Assembly (NCBI GenBank): GCA_946885605.1
Contig: CAMPGR010000074.1
Coordinates: 1-18,706 of the forward strand
DNA: 18,706 nucleotides
Source: an uncultured Pseudomonadota bacterium
GTDB taxonomy: Bacteria; Pseudomonadota; Gammaproteobacteria; Burkholderiales; SG8-41
Direction: 5' to 3'
Below, in pieces: positions 3,237 to 18,706 of the stretch (the stretch's first letter is position 1; the number at the start of each line of letters is the position of its first letter). The notes under the pieces were generated by a model. It did no database searches. It had not been told where the DNA came from and saw nothing but the letters and a program-made list of their open reading frames with translations. Position numbers and translations under genes: made by a program.

Positions 3237-3267
3237 AAAAAAGCCCGGTCGCTCGCGACCGGGCTTT
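3237..3267 (-). terminator. Rho-independent terminator of the peroxiredoxin gene
   Basis: A perfect 12-base inverted repeat (AAGCCCGGTCGC at 3241-3252, GCGACCGGGCTT at 3255-3266) is followed on the minus strand by a run of six T. It lies 26 bases past the peroxiredoxin stop codon and before the dehydrogenase start, so it separates the two minus-strand units. Confidence 0.9.
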
Positions 3268-3292
3268 CATCGGTTACATGCTGTTCACCAAC

Positions 3293-3751
3293 CTATAGCT
3301 GACGCAGCCGCTCGAGCAGGTCCTTGCTCTCCGGTATCGTCCCCGGCTCGTAGACCTTCGCGAAGCGGATGATGCCGCTTGCATCGACGAGGAACGCCGA
3401 GCGCTTGTCCATGCCGCGCTCGTCGTTGAAGACGCCGTAGGCCTTGCCGATCGCGCCGTGCGGCCAGTAGTCCGAAAGGAGCGGGAAGGGAAGCCCGCCC
3501 AACTGCTCGACCCAGGCTTTCAGGCTCGGCACGGGGTCGGCGCTGATCTGGAGAATCTCGACGTTCAGCTTCTTGAATTCATCGTAGTTCGCACGGAACC
3601 CGCTGACTTGATTCTTTCACCCGCCGGTGAACGCGAAGGGCAGAAAGCTCACCACGGTCGTGCGGCCGCGGAAGCTCGCAAGCGAGAGCTTCTGGTCGGT
3701 ATGCGAGGCGAGCTGGAAATCGGGAGCGGTGGTGCCGGGCTGCAGTTCCAT
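3293..3751 (-). CDS. AhpE-like 1-Cys-type peroxiredoxin with in-frame TGA at the peroxidatic position (candidate selenoprotein)
   Basis: Read through one TGA (3617-3619), the frame gives 152 residues, close to the length I recall for mycobacterial AhpE (about 153). The thioredoxin-fold peroxiredoxin features are all present: APDFQL near 9-14, the active-site segment with Pro38, Thr42 and codon 45 in the P-x-x-x-T-x-x-C pattern, the catalytic Arg117 (KRSAFLVD), and AhpE-like segments FPLLSDYWPHGA and YGVFN. Codon 45, the peroxidatic cysteine of the family, is TGA, and the protein has no cysteine anywhere. I infer selenocysteine at 45, giving a one-Sec peroxidase that reduces H2O2 or organic peroxides in the cytoplasm using an external thiol. 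A strong ribosome binding site (AAAGGAGAAGTCA) precedes the ATG. The gene is monocistronic, with its own terminator. The rival view is a nonsense mutation or base error (TGC to TGA); intact codons on both sides and a hairpin after the TGA argue against it. Confidence 0.85.
3576..3609 (-). promoter_or_regulatory. Candidate bacterial SECIS hairpin after the peroxiredoxin TGA
   Basis: On the minus strand, starting eight bases after the TGA, the coding sequence folds by eye into an imperfect stem. The apical part is CGGGUUC paired with GAACU(A)CG, with one bulged A and one G-U pair, closing a five-base loop CGUGC. Below it, after a G-A mismatch, UCA pairs with UGA, and after a second G-A mismatch AA pairs with UU. 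The loop begins 22 bases after the TGA and has GU at its second and third positions. Position, size and loop G agree with known bacterial SECIS elements, which bind SelB directly downstream of the Sec codon. No folding energy was computed. Confidence 0.6.
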
Positions 3752-3895
3752 TGACTTCTCCTTTCGTAAGGCCAAGAAGACGGTAACGTGAAACCGTGTC
3801 GGGACGTGAAGTTTACGTGAGCCGCCCGGCTCCCGCCAGTCGTCCAGATGGCGCCAGCCCGCAAAGCCGGAGGGCGGCAGCGAGGGTGAGCGCCG

Positions 3896-15238: not shown

Positions 15239-15904
15239 TCAATCCCGCATTTCACGTCGAGCGTCCAGCCTCTCGAGCCGCGCCCTGAGTTCCGCCACAT
15301 CCTTCTGCAGCTCCACGATGCTGGCCTTCATCGCGGCGATCTCGGAAATCGCGCCTCCCGTCGCCTCGACTGCCGGCGCCGGTGCGCTCACCGCAGCTTC
15401 CTGCGCCGACGCGGCGCCGGAGAGAAGATGCATCCAGCGGTTTTCGCGCGCGCCCGGCTGACGCGAAAGCTCGGTGGCGAGCGCACCGGCCGCGCGCTCC
15501 GCGAGCTCGCGCAGGAAGGTCTCCACGAGCTCGATATCGCTGAAGGCGTGCAGCCGCTCGGCGTTGATGCGCAGCTCGCCCGCGGTCTGCGGCCCCCGCA
15601 GCATGAGCACGGTGAGGAGTGCCGTCGCCTGCTTCGGGATCTGCAGCACGCGCTCGATGTTGTGGCTGTAGCGGGCGACGCGTCCGCCGCTCGACTCGAT
15701 CACGAGCATCATCGCCCGCAGATGGTCGAGCGCAGCCTGGACCTCGGTCTCCGTCGCGTTGATCACCGGGTCGCGGCTCGTCTTCTGGTTGCATCCGGCA
15801 ACCAGCGCGTTGAGCGTCATCGGGTAGACGTCGGGCACGGTGCGCTCTTTTTCGGCGAGCACGCCGAGCACCCGCGTCTCCAGGAAAGAGAGGTGCGGAA
15901 CCAT
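15239..15904 (-). CDS. yceH: YceH family (DUF480) protein
   Basis: This 221-residue protein matches the family length of about 215. The YceH signature is clear: [20 protein letters not shown] at the N-terminus, then [20 protein letters not shown], then a second winged-helix segment with [18 protein letters not shown]-terminal heptad-like segment ([20 protein letters not shown]) is probably coiled-coil. Members are small cytoplasmic double winged-helix proteins of uncertain role, possibly DNA-binding. The ATG at 15904 was chosen; a GTG directly before it is possible. It lies 45 bases after prfC on the same strand. Confidence 0.88.
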
Positions 15905-15924
15905 CACTGCGGTCTTCGTTTATG

Positions 15925-15950
15925 GATCGCGGGCTATTTTACCCGCGATC
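15925..15950 (-). other. Hairpin at the prfC stop codon
   Basis: GATCGCGGG (15925-15933) and CCCGCGATC (15942-15950) form a nine-base stem with an eight-base loop, overlapping the prfC TGA. There is no U run after it on the minus strand, so it may attenuate, or protect mRNA ends, rather than terminate. Confidence 0.5.
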
Positions 15951-17559
15951 AGACGACCGAATTCGAGTGGAACAGGAGCCCCGCGTGCTCGCGCAGCGTG
16001 TGAAAACGGATCCTGGGCCACAGCTCGTGCGCGGCCTTGATCTCGGCCTCGTACGCGGCGAGAAACGTCGGCGCCTCGACCGCGTCGTGAGCGATGCGGT
16101 GCGCGTTCTCGTCGATGAAGCGTTTCATCTCACGCGGGTCTTCGGCCGTCACCCAGCGCGCGGCGGTGTAGCGGGCGGGCGCGAGCCGCGCCTCGCAGCC
16201 GTACTCGTGTCGCAGGCGGTGCGCGACGACCTCGAACTGAAGCTGCCCCACTGCGCCGAGAAGGAGCGAGCCGCCCGAGACGGGCCGGAAGACCTGGATC
16301 GCGCCCTCTTCGCCGAGCTGCGCGATGCCGGTGCGCAATTGCTTGCTGCGTAGCGGGTCGGCGATCTCGACCGTCTGGAAGAGCTCCGGGGCGAAGAACG
16401 GCAGCCCGGTGAACTGGAGGTCCTCTCCTTCGGTCAGCGTGTCGCCCAGTTGCAGCACGCCGTGATTGGGGATGCCGATGATGTCCCCGGCGTACGCGTC
16501 TTCGACGATTTCACGCCGCTGCGAGAGGAACGAGACCACGTTGTTGGGGCGGAAATCCTTGCCCGTTCGGCAATTGCGCAGCCGCATGCCGCGCTCGAAG
16601 TGCCCCGAGCAGACGCGAATGAACGCCACGCGATCACGGTGACCGGGGTCCATGTTCGCCTGGATCTTGAACACCACGCCGGAGAACTTCGGCTCCATCG
16701 GGTCCACGGTGCGCTGGAGCGCGCGCCGCGAGCGGGGCGGAGAAGCGAAGTCCACCAGCGCGTCGAGCACCTCCTTCACGCCGAAGTTGTTGATGGCGGA
16801 GCCGAAGAAGAGCGGCGTCTGCTTCCCGCGAAGAAACGCCTCGCGGTCGTACTCCGGCGATACGCCGCGCACGAGCTCCATCTCCTGGCGCGCGTGCGAG
16901 AAGACTTCGCCGAAGCGCGTGCTGCACTCGGGGTTGTCCACGCCGGTGATGATTTCGGCGTCGTCGGCAACACGGTCCGCGCCGGCACGGAAGACCCGCA
17001 TCGCGTTTGCGCGCAGATCGAACACGCCCTTGAACGATTTCCCCATGCCCACCGGCCACGTGCACGGCACGACCGGCATGCCGAGCACGCGCTCGATCTC
17101 GTCCACGAGATCGACGGGGGGGCGCACCTCGCGGTCCATCTTGTTGACGAAGGTGATGACCGGCGTCGATTGCGCGCGGCAGACCTTGAGGAGACGCAGC
17201 GTCTGCGGCTCGATGCCGTTCGCCGCGTCGATCACCATGAGCGCCGCGTCCACCGCGGTCAGGACGCGATAGGTGTCTTCCGAGAAATCGCGGTGGCCCG
17301 GCGTATCGAGGAGATTGATCACGCAGTCGCGGTACTCCATCTGCATGACGGAGCTTGCGACGGAAATCCCGCGCTGCTTTTCGATCTCCATCCAATCTGA
17401 GGTGGCGTAGCGCGAGGACTTACGCGCCTTGACGCTGCCCGCGATGTGGATCGCGCCGGCGTACAGCAGGAGCTTCTCCGTGAGCGTGGTCTTGCCCGCG
17501 TCCGGATGCGAAATGATGGCGAAGGTCCTTCGCCGCGAAACTTCCCGATCGATGCTCAT
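15949..17559 (-). CDS. prfC: Peptide chain release factor 3 (RF3)
   Basis: This 536-residue translational GTPase matches the length of RF3 (529 in E. coli). The GTPase motifs are intact: P-loop SHPDAGKTT (17-25), switch region RGISVASS (63-70), DTPGH (85-89) and NKMD (139-142). RF3-specific segments include KARKSSRYATSDWMEIEKQR near 45-62, the beta-barrel domain 2 with FKIQANMDPGHRDRVAFIRV, and the C-terminal GAVGQLQFEVVAHRLRHEYG. It recycles RF1/RF2 from the ribosome after peptide release. The ATG at 17559 (MSIDREVSRRRTFAI) fits the family start; the longer open frame to 17976 is a shadow of the divergent gene. The ribosome binding site is weak. Confidence 0.96.
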   Translation of the reverse strand: MSIDREVSRRRTFAIISHPDAGKTTLTEKLLLYAGAIHIAGSVKARKSSRYATSDWMEIEKQRGISVASSVMQMEYRDCVINLLDTPGHRDFSEDTYRVLTAVDAALMVIDAANGIEPQTLRLLKVCRAQSTPVITFVNKMDREVRPPVDLVDEIERVLGMPVVPCTWPVGMGKSFKGVFDLRANAMRVFRAGADRVADDAEIITGVDNPECSTRFGEVFSHARQEMELVRGVSPEYDREAFLRGKQTPLFFGSAINNFGVKEVLDALVDFASPPRSRRALQRTVDPMEPKFSGVVFKIQANMDPGHRDRVAFIRVCSGHFERGMRLRNCRTGKDFRPNNVVSFLSQRREIVEDAYAGDIIGIPNHGVLQLGDTLTEGEDLQFTGLPFFAPELFQTVEIADPLRSKQLRTGIAQLGEEGAIQVFRPVSGGSLLLGAVGQLQFEVVAHRLRHEYGCEARLAPARYTAARWVTAEDPREMKRFIDENAHRIAHDAVEAPTFLAAYEAEIKAAHELWPRIRFHTLREHAGLLFHSNSVV

Positions 17560-17602
17560 TGCCGTGTGCGCACGGGATCCCCGCGGATCCCAAAGGGCGC
17601 GG

Positions 17603-17631
17603 ATGATACAGCAAAGAGAGCGGCGAGACCA
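17603..17631 (-). promoter_or_regulatory. Weak candidate promoter for prfC
   Basis: On the minus strand a TATCAT box (17603-17608, five of six to TATAAT) lies 43 bases before the prfC ATG, with TGGTCT 17 bases upstream as a poor -35. Only the -10 is convincing. Confidence 0.25.
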
Positions 17632-17671
17632 CCCGCTCACGTGACTTAATGCGCTGTCGCGATTGGTGATT

Positions 17672-17699
17672 TTGCGGAGCGATGGGCGCGGCGTATCAT
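17672..17699 (+). promoter_or_regulatory. Candidate sigma-70 promoter for the second TctC-like gene
   Basis: TTGCGG (17672-17677) and TATCAT (17694-17699, five of six) are separated by 16 bases, and the ATG follows 56 bases later. It sits in the 196-base region between the divergent prfC and binding-protein genes, which otherwise shows no feature. Confidence 0.35.
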
Positions 17700-17755
17700 C
17701 CGGGCGGAACGGCTCAATGCCGCCCAAGATGTTTTCAACAAAGGAGGAGAAAAGA

Positions 17756-18706
17756 ATGCGTGTTTTGAGAGCGACCCTGTGCGCGGCGCTGTTCGCCGCG
17801 ACGGTGTGCCCGCTGCCGTCCCTTGCCCAGAAGTACCCGGAGAAGAGCATCCGGCTCGTGGTGGCATTCCCCACGGGCGCGCCGTACATCCTGGCGCTGC
17901 TCATGTCGGAGAAGCTGCGCGAGACGCTGGGCCAGTCGGTCGTGCCCGATTTCCGCGGCGGCGCGGGCGGCAGCATCGCCTCGGAGCTCGTGGCGAAGGC
18001 GCCGAACGACGGCTACACGTTGCTCTTGACGAGCGCGACCATCGTCATCAGCCCGAGCCTATACCCGAAGCTTGCCTACGATCCGTTCCGCGATTTTGTG
18101 CCGATCACGCGCGTTGCGACGGTGCCGAATGTGCTCATCGTCCATCCGTCCGTGCCAGCGAAAAGTCTTCGCGAGCTCGTCAAACTGGCGAAGAGCCATC
18201 CTGGAAAACTCAATTACGGCTCGGGTGGGGTCGGGTCGGGGAGCCAGCTCGGCAGCGAGCTCTTCAAGACGCTGAGCAAGATCGAGCTCGTGCACGTGCC
18301 GTACAAGGGGGCGTCGCTCGCGCTGCAGGCGATGTTGAGCGGCGAGGTCGATATGGTCACATCGACAGTTCCTGCGACGATTCCGCTCGTAAATGCAGGA
18401 AAGATCCGCGCGCTCGCCGTGATGGCGCCGAATCGCGTGGCTGCGCTGCCCAAAGTGCCGACCACCGCGGAAGGCGGCATGCCGGAGCTCGTCGTCATCA
18501 CGTGGTACGGACTCTTCGCGCCGGCGGGCGTGAAGGCCGACATCGTCGAGCGCCTGAATGCGGAGATGGTCAAGCTCTTCAACAAGCCCGATACGCGCGC
18601 GCGGCTCGCCAAGGTGGAGCTCGAGCCGGCGACGACGACGCCGGCGGAATTCGCGAAGTTCGTGCGCGAGGAATCGGACAAGTGGGCGCGCGTCATCAAG
18701 GACGCC
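17756..18706 (+). CDS. TctC/Bug-family periplasmic solute-binding protein, 3' end outside window
   Basis: There are 317 residues up to the right edge, nearly the full family length of about 320-325. A signal peptide (about 1-24, ending PSLA) is followed by KYPEKSIRLVVAFPTGAPYI, then FRGGAGGSIASELVAKAPND, YGSGGVGSGSQLGSELFKTL, VPYKGASLALQAMLSGEVDM and WYGLFAPAGVKADIVERLN, all classic Bug features. Where many relatives have P-G-G-x-x-D near residue 40, this one reads P-T-G-A-P-Y, so the ligand pocket may differ. The ribosome binding site AAAGGAGGAGAAAAGA is strong. Ligand unknown; no TctAB partner is visible. Confidence 0.9.
   Translation, partial: MRVLRATLCAALFAATVCPLPSLAQKYPEKSIRLVVAFPTGAPYILALLMSEKLRETLGQSVVPDFRGGAGGSIASELVAKAPNDGYTLLLTSATIVISPSLYPKLAYDPFRDFVPITRVATVPNVLIVHPSVPAKSLRELVKLAKSHPGKLNYGSGGVGSGSQLGSELFKTLSKIELVHVPYKGASLALQAMLSGEVDMVTSTVPATIPLVNAGKIRALAVMAPNRVAALPKVPTTAEGGMPELVVITWYGLFAPAGVKADIVERLNAEMVKLFNKPDTRARLAKVELEPATTTPAEFAKFVREESDKWARVIKDA

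Follow-up and report, generated by a model that had tools for sequence, protein, structure and literature searches.

A very probable selenocysteine form of an AhpE-type peroxiredoxin in Burkholderiales, with UGA at the peroxidatic codon

The window, meaning the whole stretch of 18,706 nucleotides analysed here, carries on its minus strand a peroxiredoxin frame whose sole in-frame stop before its end is the TGA of codon 45 (Table 1). An earlier note, made from the sequence alone, had proposed a frame of 152 codons with this single TGA, and translation of the region bore it out. The coordinates in that note were right; it gave no strand, which we can now state as minus. The read-through product (MELQPG...LPFAFTGGUKNQV...RLRQL) has 152 residues. 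Pro38, Thr42, Sec45 and Arg117 are all present and the chain contains no Cys, again as proposed. The ribosome binding site claimed for the gene was found, and the 36 relatives listed likewise have GGAG or GAGG ahead of their start codon. For the claimed terminator the picture was divided. A hairpin with a T run does lie 3' of the TAG (−23.5 kcal/mol, z −4.57, none of 200 shuffles as good), and a consensus terminator scan of the window reported nothing at this place. The GTG at 3532, from which automatic annotation was expected to start, is indeed the first in-frame ATG, GTG or TTG past the TGA. Neither Rfam nor ARAGORN gave RNA genes in the window.

Table 1 Features of the peroxiredoxin locus in the window.
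Feature	Position	Strand	Details
AhpE-type selenocysteine peroxiredoxin gene (very probable)	3293..3751	-	152 codons, ATG at 3751, TAG at 3295-3293; AhpC-TSA profile
In-frame TGA, codon 45, peroxidatic position, very probably read as selenocysteine	3617..3619	-	3619-3617 in reading direction; frame and conservation in relatives
Ribosome binding site AGGAG	3758..3762	-	6 nt ahead of the ATG
Probable intrinsic terminator	3237..3268	-	13-bp stem and T run
Predicted SECIS hairpin CGGGUUC-CGUGC-GAACUACG	3583..3602	-	7 pairs with one bulged A; loop of 5 nt (3595-3591)

The read-through protein matched the AhpC-TSA family profile with 117.7 bits. Its closest solved relatives by sequence were the AhpE structures of Mycobacterium tuberculosis (best E 2.8e-36), with which it shares 42% identity, the motif Pro-x-x-x-Thr-x-x-C/U and the Arg. 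An AlphaFold2 model built from 11 sequences had a mean pLDDT of 85.7 and a TM-score of 0.91 to AhpE. In peroxiredoxins generally, the catalytic residue lies near the start of a helix; in the model, residue 45 is near the start of helix 43-54, in the part where model confidence was lowest (block mean 61, residues 41-50). Profile, PxxxTxxC/U motif with Arg, and predicted fold agree in placing the protein among the AhpC-TSA/AhpE peroxiredoxins. Unlike the window protein, AhpE is a 1-Cys enzyme, with Cys where the window has Sec. The title of one AhpE structure, 5id2, mentions exposure to mycothiol, and Betaproteobacteria are not known to produce this thiol.

The earlier note had compared the protein with PrxU of Eubacterium acidaminophilum, and this needs correcting. 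All 13 NCBIfam matches fell below their own cut-offs, including the top one, PrxU (NF040737, 88.2 vs 270 bits), and we therefore regard the protein as an AhpE-type peroxiredoxin and not as a PrxU equivalog. The Sec peroxiredoxin family, of which PrxU was the first, shares with the window protein PF00578 and the peroxidatic Sec in PxxxTxxU (PMC13188914). It differs in that the window protein fails the equivalog cut-off, is of the AhpE type and comes from Betaproteobacteria. The thiol peroxidase Prx-SUH (NF045827) is also a selenoprotein and matches the same superfamily. However, the window protein reached only 25.3 vs 298 bits, and the motif is CxxU in Prx-SUH (according to the table in PMC13188914) and TxxU here.

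To find relatives we scanned a collection in which each species is represented by a single genome. The pattern at the peroxidatic site was written with Cys, so that TGA was not favoured by the scan. The 27 loci recovered encode proteins 68-83% identical to that of the window. The peroxidatic codon was TGA in all 27, each from a separate assembly. Of 399 genomes sampled from the order, 27 had a match; there were 28 matches altogether, and 26 of these had one TGA. The other two were L086 and L090. L086 (G154) lies at a contig end and covers the C-terminal half of the gene; the TGA is in the remaining half, L091. L090 (G180) is a paralogue of 37% identity that has Cys, within SPVC. With a threshold of E <= 1e-20, the order sample yielded no Cys form besides this paralogue. 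When any codon was allowed at the site, 54 of 56 sequences had TGA (the set being the window, L001-L027 and L064-L091, some genes being counted twice), the exceptions being again L086 and L090. The alignment of homologues thus upheld what had been claimed for codon 45. Scattered stops in close relatives, named beforehand as a sign against the claim, were not seen. The gene shows what is expected of a bacterial selenoprotein: the in-frame TGA is conserved and occupies a redox position, which is Cys in AhpE and in the database protein P0008, described below. Some relatives have a further Cys, e.g. in KKLNCEIL of L002.

Broader samples gave few matches. In a class sample, three of 369 genomes gave matches: G004, and two with proteins 35-38% identical and without the stop. 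In a phylum sample there were two of 398, G004 and G180. As far as the sequences in these samples tell, the gene appears to occur mainly in Burkholderiales.

For codon statistics, we required a motif including the TGA and NQV. It was matched by 51 of 55 sequences (window, L001-L026, L064-L091) and failed by L086, L087, L088 and L090. Removal of the truncated L089 and L091 and of identical copies left 37 distinct copies. In these, positions +6 to +11 counted from the TGA hold the codons GGG, TTC, CGT, GAG (22 copies) or GCG (15), AAC, and TAC (35 copies; one CTC, one CAT). There is zero synonymous change in this stretch: copies that share an amino acid also share its codon. Mean codon identity was 0.99 at +6 to +13, vs 0.55 for the 110 codons outside +1 to +16. 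Of 121 sliding intervals of codons, the one starting at +6 ranked highest, with the core chosen after the table had been inspected. Likewise, pS was 0.05 at codons +6 to +14 vs 0.58 at +17 to +104. The pN/pS ratio was ~0.3 both before and after the UGA.

This stretch contains the predicted SECIS hairpin, with seven pairs, a CGUGC or CGUGA loop and 21 nt between UGA and loop. The bacterial SECIS model, as given in PMC13188914, has a loop of 3-9 nt, an upper stem of 4-16 bp and a distance of 16-37 nt from the UGA, and also needs a G in the first two loop positions and a minimum free energy <= −7.5 kcal/mol. The window hairpin agrees with all the geometric rules (loop CGUGC with G second, seven pairs with one bulge, 21 nt), but misses the energy rule with −6.7 vs −7.5 kcal/mol, and shuffled sequences fold equally well (z −0.01). 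Stretches of 42-48 nt gave −6.9 for L004, −6.2 for L016, −7.9 for L024, −9.2 for L005 and −8.9 kcal/mol for the divergent L087. When 48 or 54 nt of the window were folded, the lowest-energy structure (−8.3) differed from the SECIS hairpin. In a scan of 27 genes, 9 of 134 other codon positions had hairpins that were, on average, equally long. The hairpin alignment, for which 32 of the 37 copies were supplied (22 distinct rows), had 99.4% of its cells paired. Five of the seven pairs never vary, two vary on one side, and one cell breaks. Compensatory pairs were not found within the main clade, with no double change in the 22 distinct rows. Because the energy is unremarkable, a longer stretch folds differently, equally long hairpins are no rarity in the gene and the main clade shows no covariation, our case for the SECIS is built on the conserved codons and on where the hairpin lies.

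Two divergent homologues of 40-42% identity, L087 (G196) and L088 (G160), form a second Sec peroxiredoxin subfamily. Their TGA comes after FTGG and is followed by CUUCAAC-CGUGC-GUUGAAG, which has the same loop on a different stem. At the level of sequence, this is independent support for the predicted hairpin. The SECIS region, on which the earlier note was silent, bears much of the evidence for the selenocysteine reading.

The earlier note had suggested a search for the selenocysteine machinery. We ran it in the 27 genomes of relatives carrying the gene, plus 14 well-known control genomes. The machinery was there: selB and selA exceeded their cut-offs in all 27 genomes, and tRNA-Sec and selD in 26 each. 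In the 26 genomes tRNA-Sec scored 71-79 bits and lay on the same contig as selB in 23. The exception was G002, where selB lies within 600 bases of a contig end. No selD above the cut-off was found in G012. Among the controls, cut-offs were exceeded by selB in two, selA in one, selD in two and tRNA-Sec in five genomes; with 5 of 14 controls positive, a tRNA-Sec score lacks specificity when taken by itself. Of the 399 genomes in the order sample, 107 had selA above its cut-off. They include all 27 in which a peroxiredoxin match occurred, namely 26 that have the Sec form and G180. As the genomes are related, this link is an association and not 27 independent events.

Each of the 26 selD-positive genomes had a selD copy with one in-frame TGA, and G007 had a second copy without a stop. 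The 15 copies fetched (L094-L108) all read SHGGGUGCK, indicating that SelD is a second Sec protein in these genomes. After the selD TGA, most copies have a stretch like GCCAGC-GUU-GCUGAGC, in which a hairpin is possible. An FdnG-type formate dehydrogenase (TIGR01553) with an in-frame TGA was present in nine of the 27 genomes (G003, G004, G008, G009, G012, G017 as a fragment, G023, G024 and G025). In G001, a TIGR01553 fragment does not reach the TGA site. A weak partial match to the same family, with one in-frame TGA, was seen at G019:C156:5538-6347 and is a possible further selenoprotein. Among the TIGR01591 matches listed, none had an internal stop.

No credible conserved neighbour was found at the 37 loci, so that gene context gives no reductant. 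The two largest clusters of predicted frames spanned 21 and 15 loci, the next only six. The 21-locus cluster runs antisense over the peroxiredoxin gene and the 15-locus cluster has frames on both strands; in our judgement both are probably spurious GC-rich frames. Within the window, different genes had different closest genomes. The peroxiredoxin was closest to G001 (83%), as was the frame at 15239-15907, which we take to be YceH (69%; matched in 8 of 32 genomes). On the other hand, prfC (RF3, 15949-17976) was closest to G007, with 88% vs 76% in G001. Gene transfer may be behind this, or the window may belong to a distinct lineage.

A protein collection gave 1044 matches. Of the 120 listed, 109 have 86-113 residues, in several different lengths, and are too short for the active site. 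This was the kind of truncation by annotation that had been foreseen for Sec peroxiredoxins. All six of the pieces examined start past codon 45. A search with residues 1-62 alone retrieved 10 proteins. Among the 120 listed there were 11 full-length relatives, with W at the site in eight, C in two (P0008, P0043) and L in one (P0004). The W would stem from table-4 translation of the TGA in JGI predictions. P0043 has an N-terminal half unlike that of the clade and looks like a chimera. P0008 (FTGGCTNQVCGF) belongs to the clade, is full-length and carries Cys at the site. A second Cys follows five residues later and may be a resolving Cys acquired when Sec was lost. Six metagenome bins carrying the gene (L008, L009, L010, L012, L014, L021) are titled Bordetella parapertussis; they seem to be environmental Betaproteobacteria that were mislabelled automatically.

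The predominance of pieces, in 109 of the 120 matches listed out of 1044, could also be taken to mean that the TGA is a regulated stop, the real product being a 44-residue peptide or a separately started C-terminal piece. We consider this very improbable. The lengths of the pieces differ, as expected without a conserved start, and none of the pieces would include the catalytic site. Both the constraint seen just past the TGA and the link to selA point to recoding, which may be partial and selenium-dependent.

Reading of the TGA as tryptophan (code 4 or similar) has even less in its favour, and we give it next to no probability. It would explain the W printed in some JGI predictions and in 8 of the 11 full-length relatives listed. 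However, the same gene ends on TGA, as its first downstream stop, in 17 of 37 distinct copies, so that TGA is not simply a tryptophan codon. The W-bearing P0003, P0007 and P0010 overrun the usual protein end through further W. Moreover, the site is Cys in AhpE and P0008, and the gene is accompanied by selA, selB and tRNA-Sec. A pseudogene or a sequencing or assembly error, to be weighed because the TGA of the window is known from assembled sequence, is effectively excluded by the TGA being kept in all 27 relatives, which come from 27 independent assemblies. In addition, a second in-frame stop before the end of the window frame is missing, and pN/pS is ~0.3 on either side of the TGA.

We conclude that the gene almost certainly encodes an intact AhpE-type peroxiredoxin with one selenocysteine, its UGA being recoded via the hairpin. 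The use of selenocysteine at codon 45, the core of the earlier note, is supported by the conservation of the TGA, by constraint at the RNA level and by the Sec machinery in relatives. For the window organism we infer the insertion itself, the binding of SelB to the hairpin, the peroxidase activity and the reductant. SelB with Sec-tRNA-Sec would bind the predicted hairpin 21 nt past the UGA, and selenocysteine would be inserted at codon 45, giving the 152-residue protein. The selenol, at the helix start and held by Pro38, Thr42 and Arg117, would attack H2O2 or an organic peroxide and be oxidised to a selenenic acid. An external thiol would then regenerate Sec45; glutathione or a glutaredoxin- or thioredoxin-like protein would be our guess. 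Because the window protein has no resolving Cys, a one-Sec cycle with an outside thiol is the simplest proposal.

Sec peroxiredoxins as such are already known. They are listed with TxxU, and PxxxTxxU is described, in PMC13188914. They are also listed in PMC9312934; PMC2398784 counts 253 sequences in ocean metagenomes and PMC5029168 counts 91 in 78 organisms. PMC4607533 concerns Epsilonproteobacteria. For proteobacteria, a 2006 survey (PMC1794560) states that those Alpha-, Beta- and Pseudomonadales Gammaproteobacteria which decode Sec have FdhA as their sole selenoprotein, and PMC8124441 describes Sec use as serving formate dehydrogenase. A term search of the text of PMC12013277 gave nothing on the subject. 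Among the titles and abstracts searched, none deals with this gene in Betaproteobacteria. It may be listed elsewhere, e.g. in the tables of a survey or in a groundwater study to which PMC13188914 refers.

The frozen stretch after the UGA, and the one loop on two stems, offer a test case for how SelB recognizes its signal in this lineage. Since protein collections, going by the matches listed, hold mostly fragments, the peroxide defence and the selenium demand of environmental Burkholderiales are under-annotated. The gene adds a Sec antioxidant enzyme, next to a Sec-containing SelD, to a proteobacterial lineage whose Sec use had been described as serving formate dehydrogenase. The Sec peroxiredoxin was present in all 27 genomes because these were chosen for carrying it. 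It is conceivable, if rather doubtful, that this subfamily is nearly always a Sec form and, together with Sec-SelD, keeps the Sec machinery in many Burkholderiales, its main client there being a 1-Sec peroxidase and not formate dehydrogenase.
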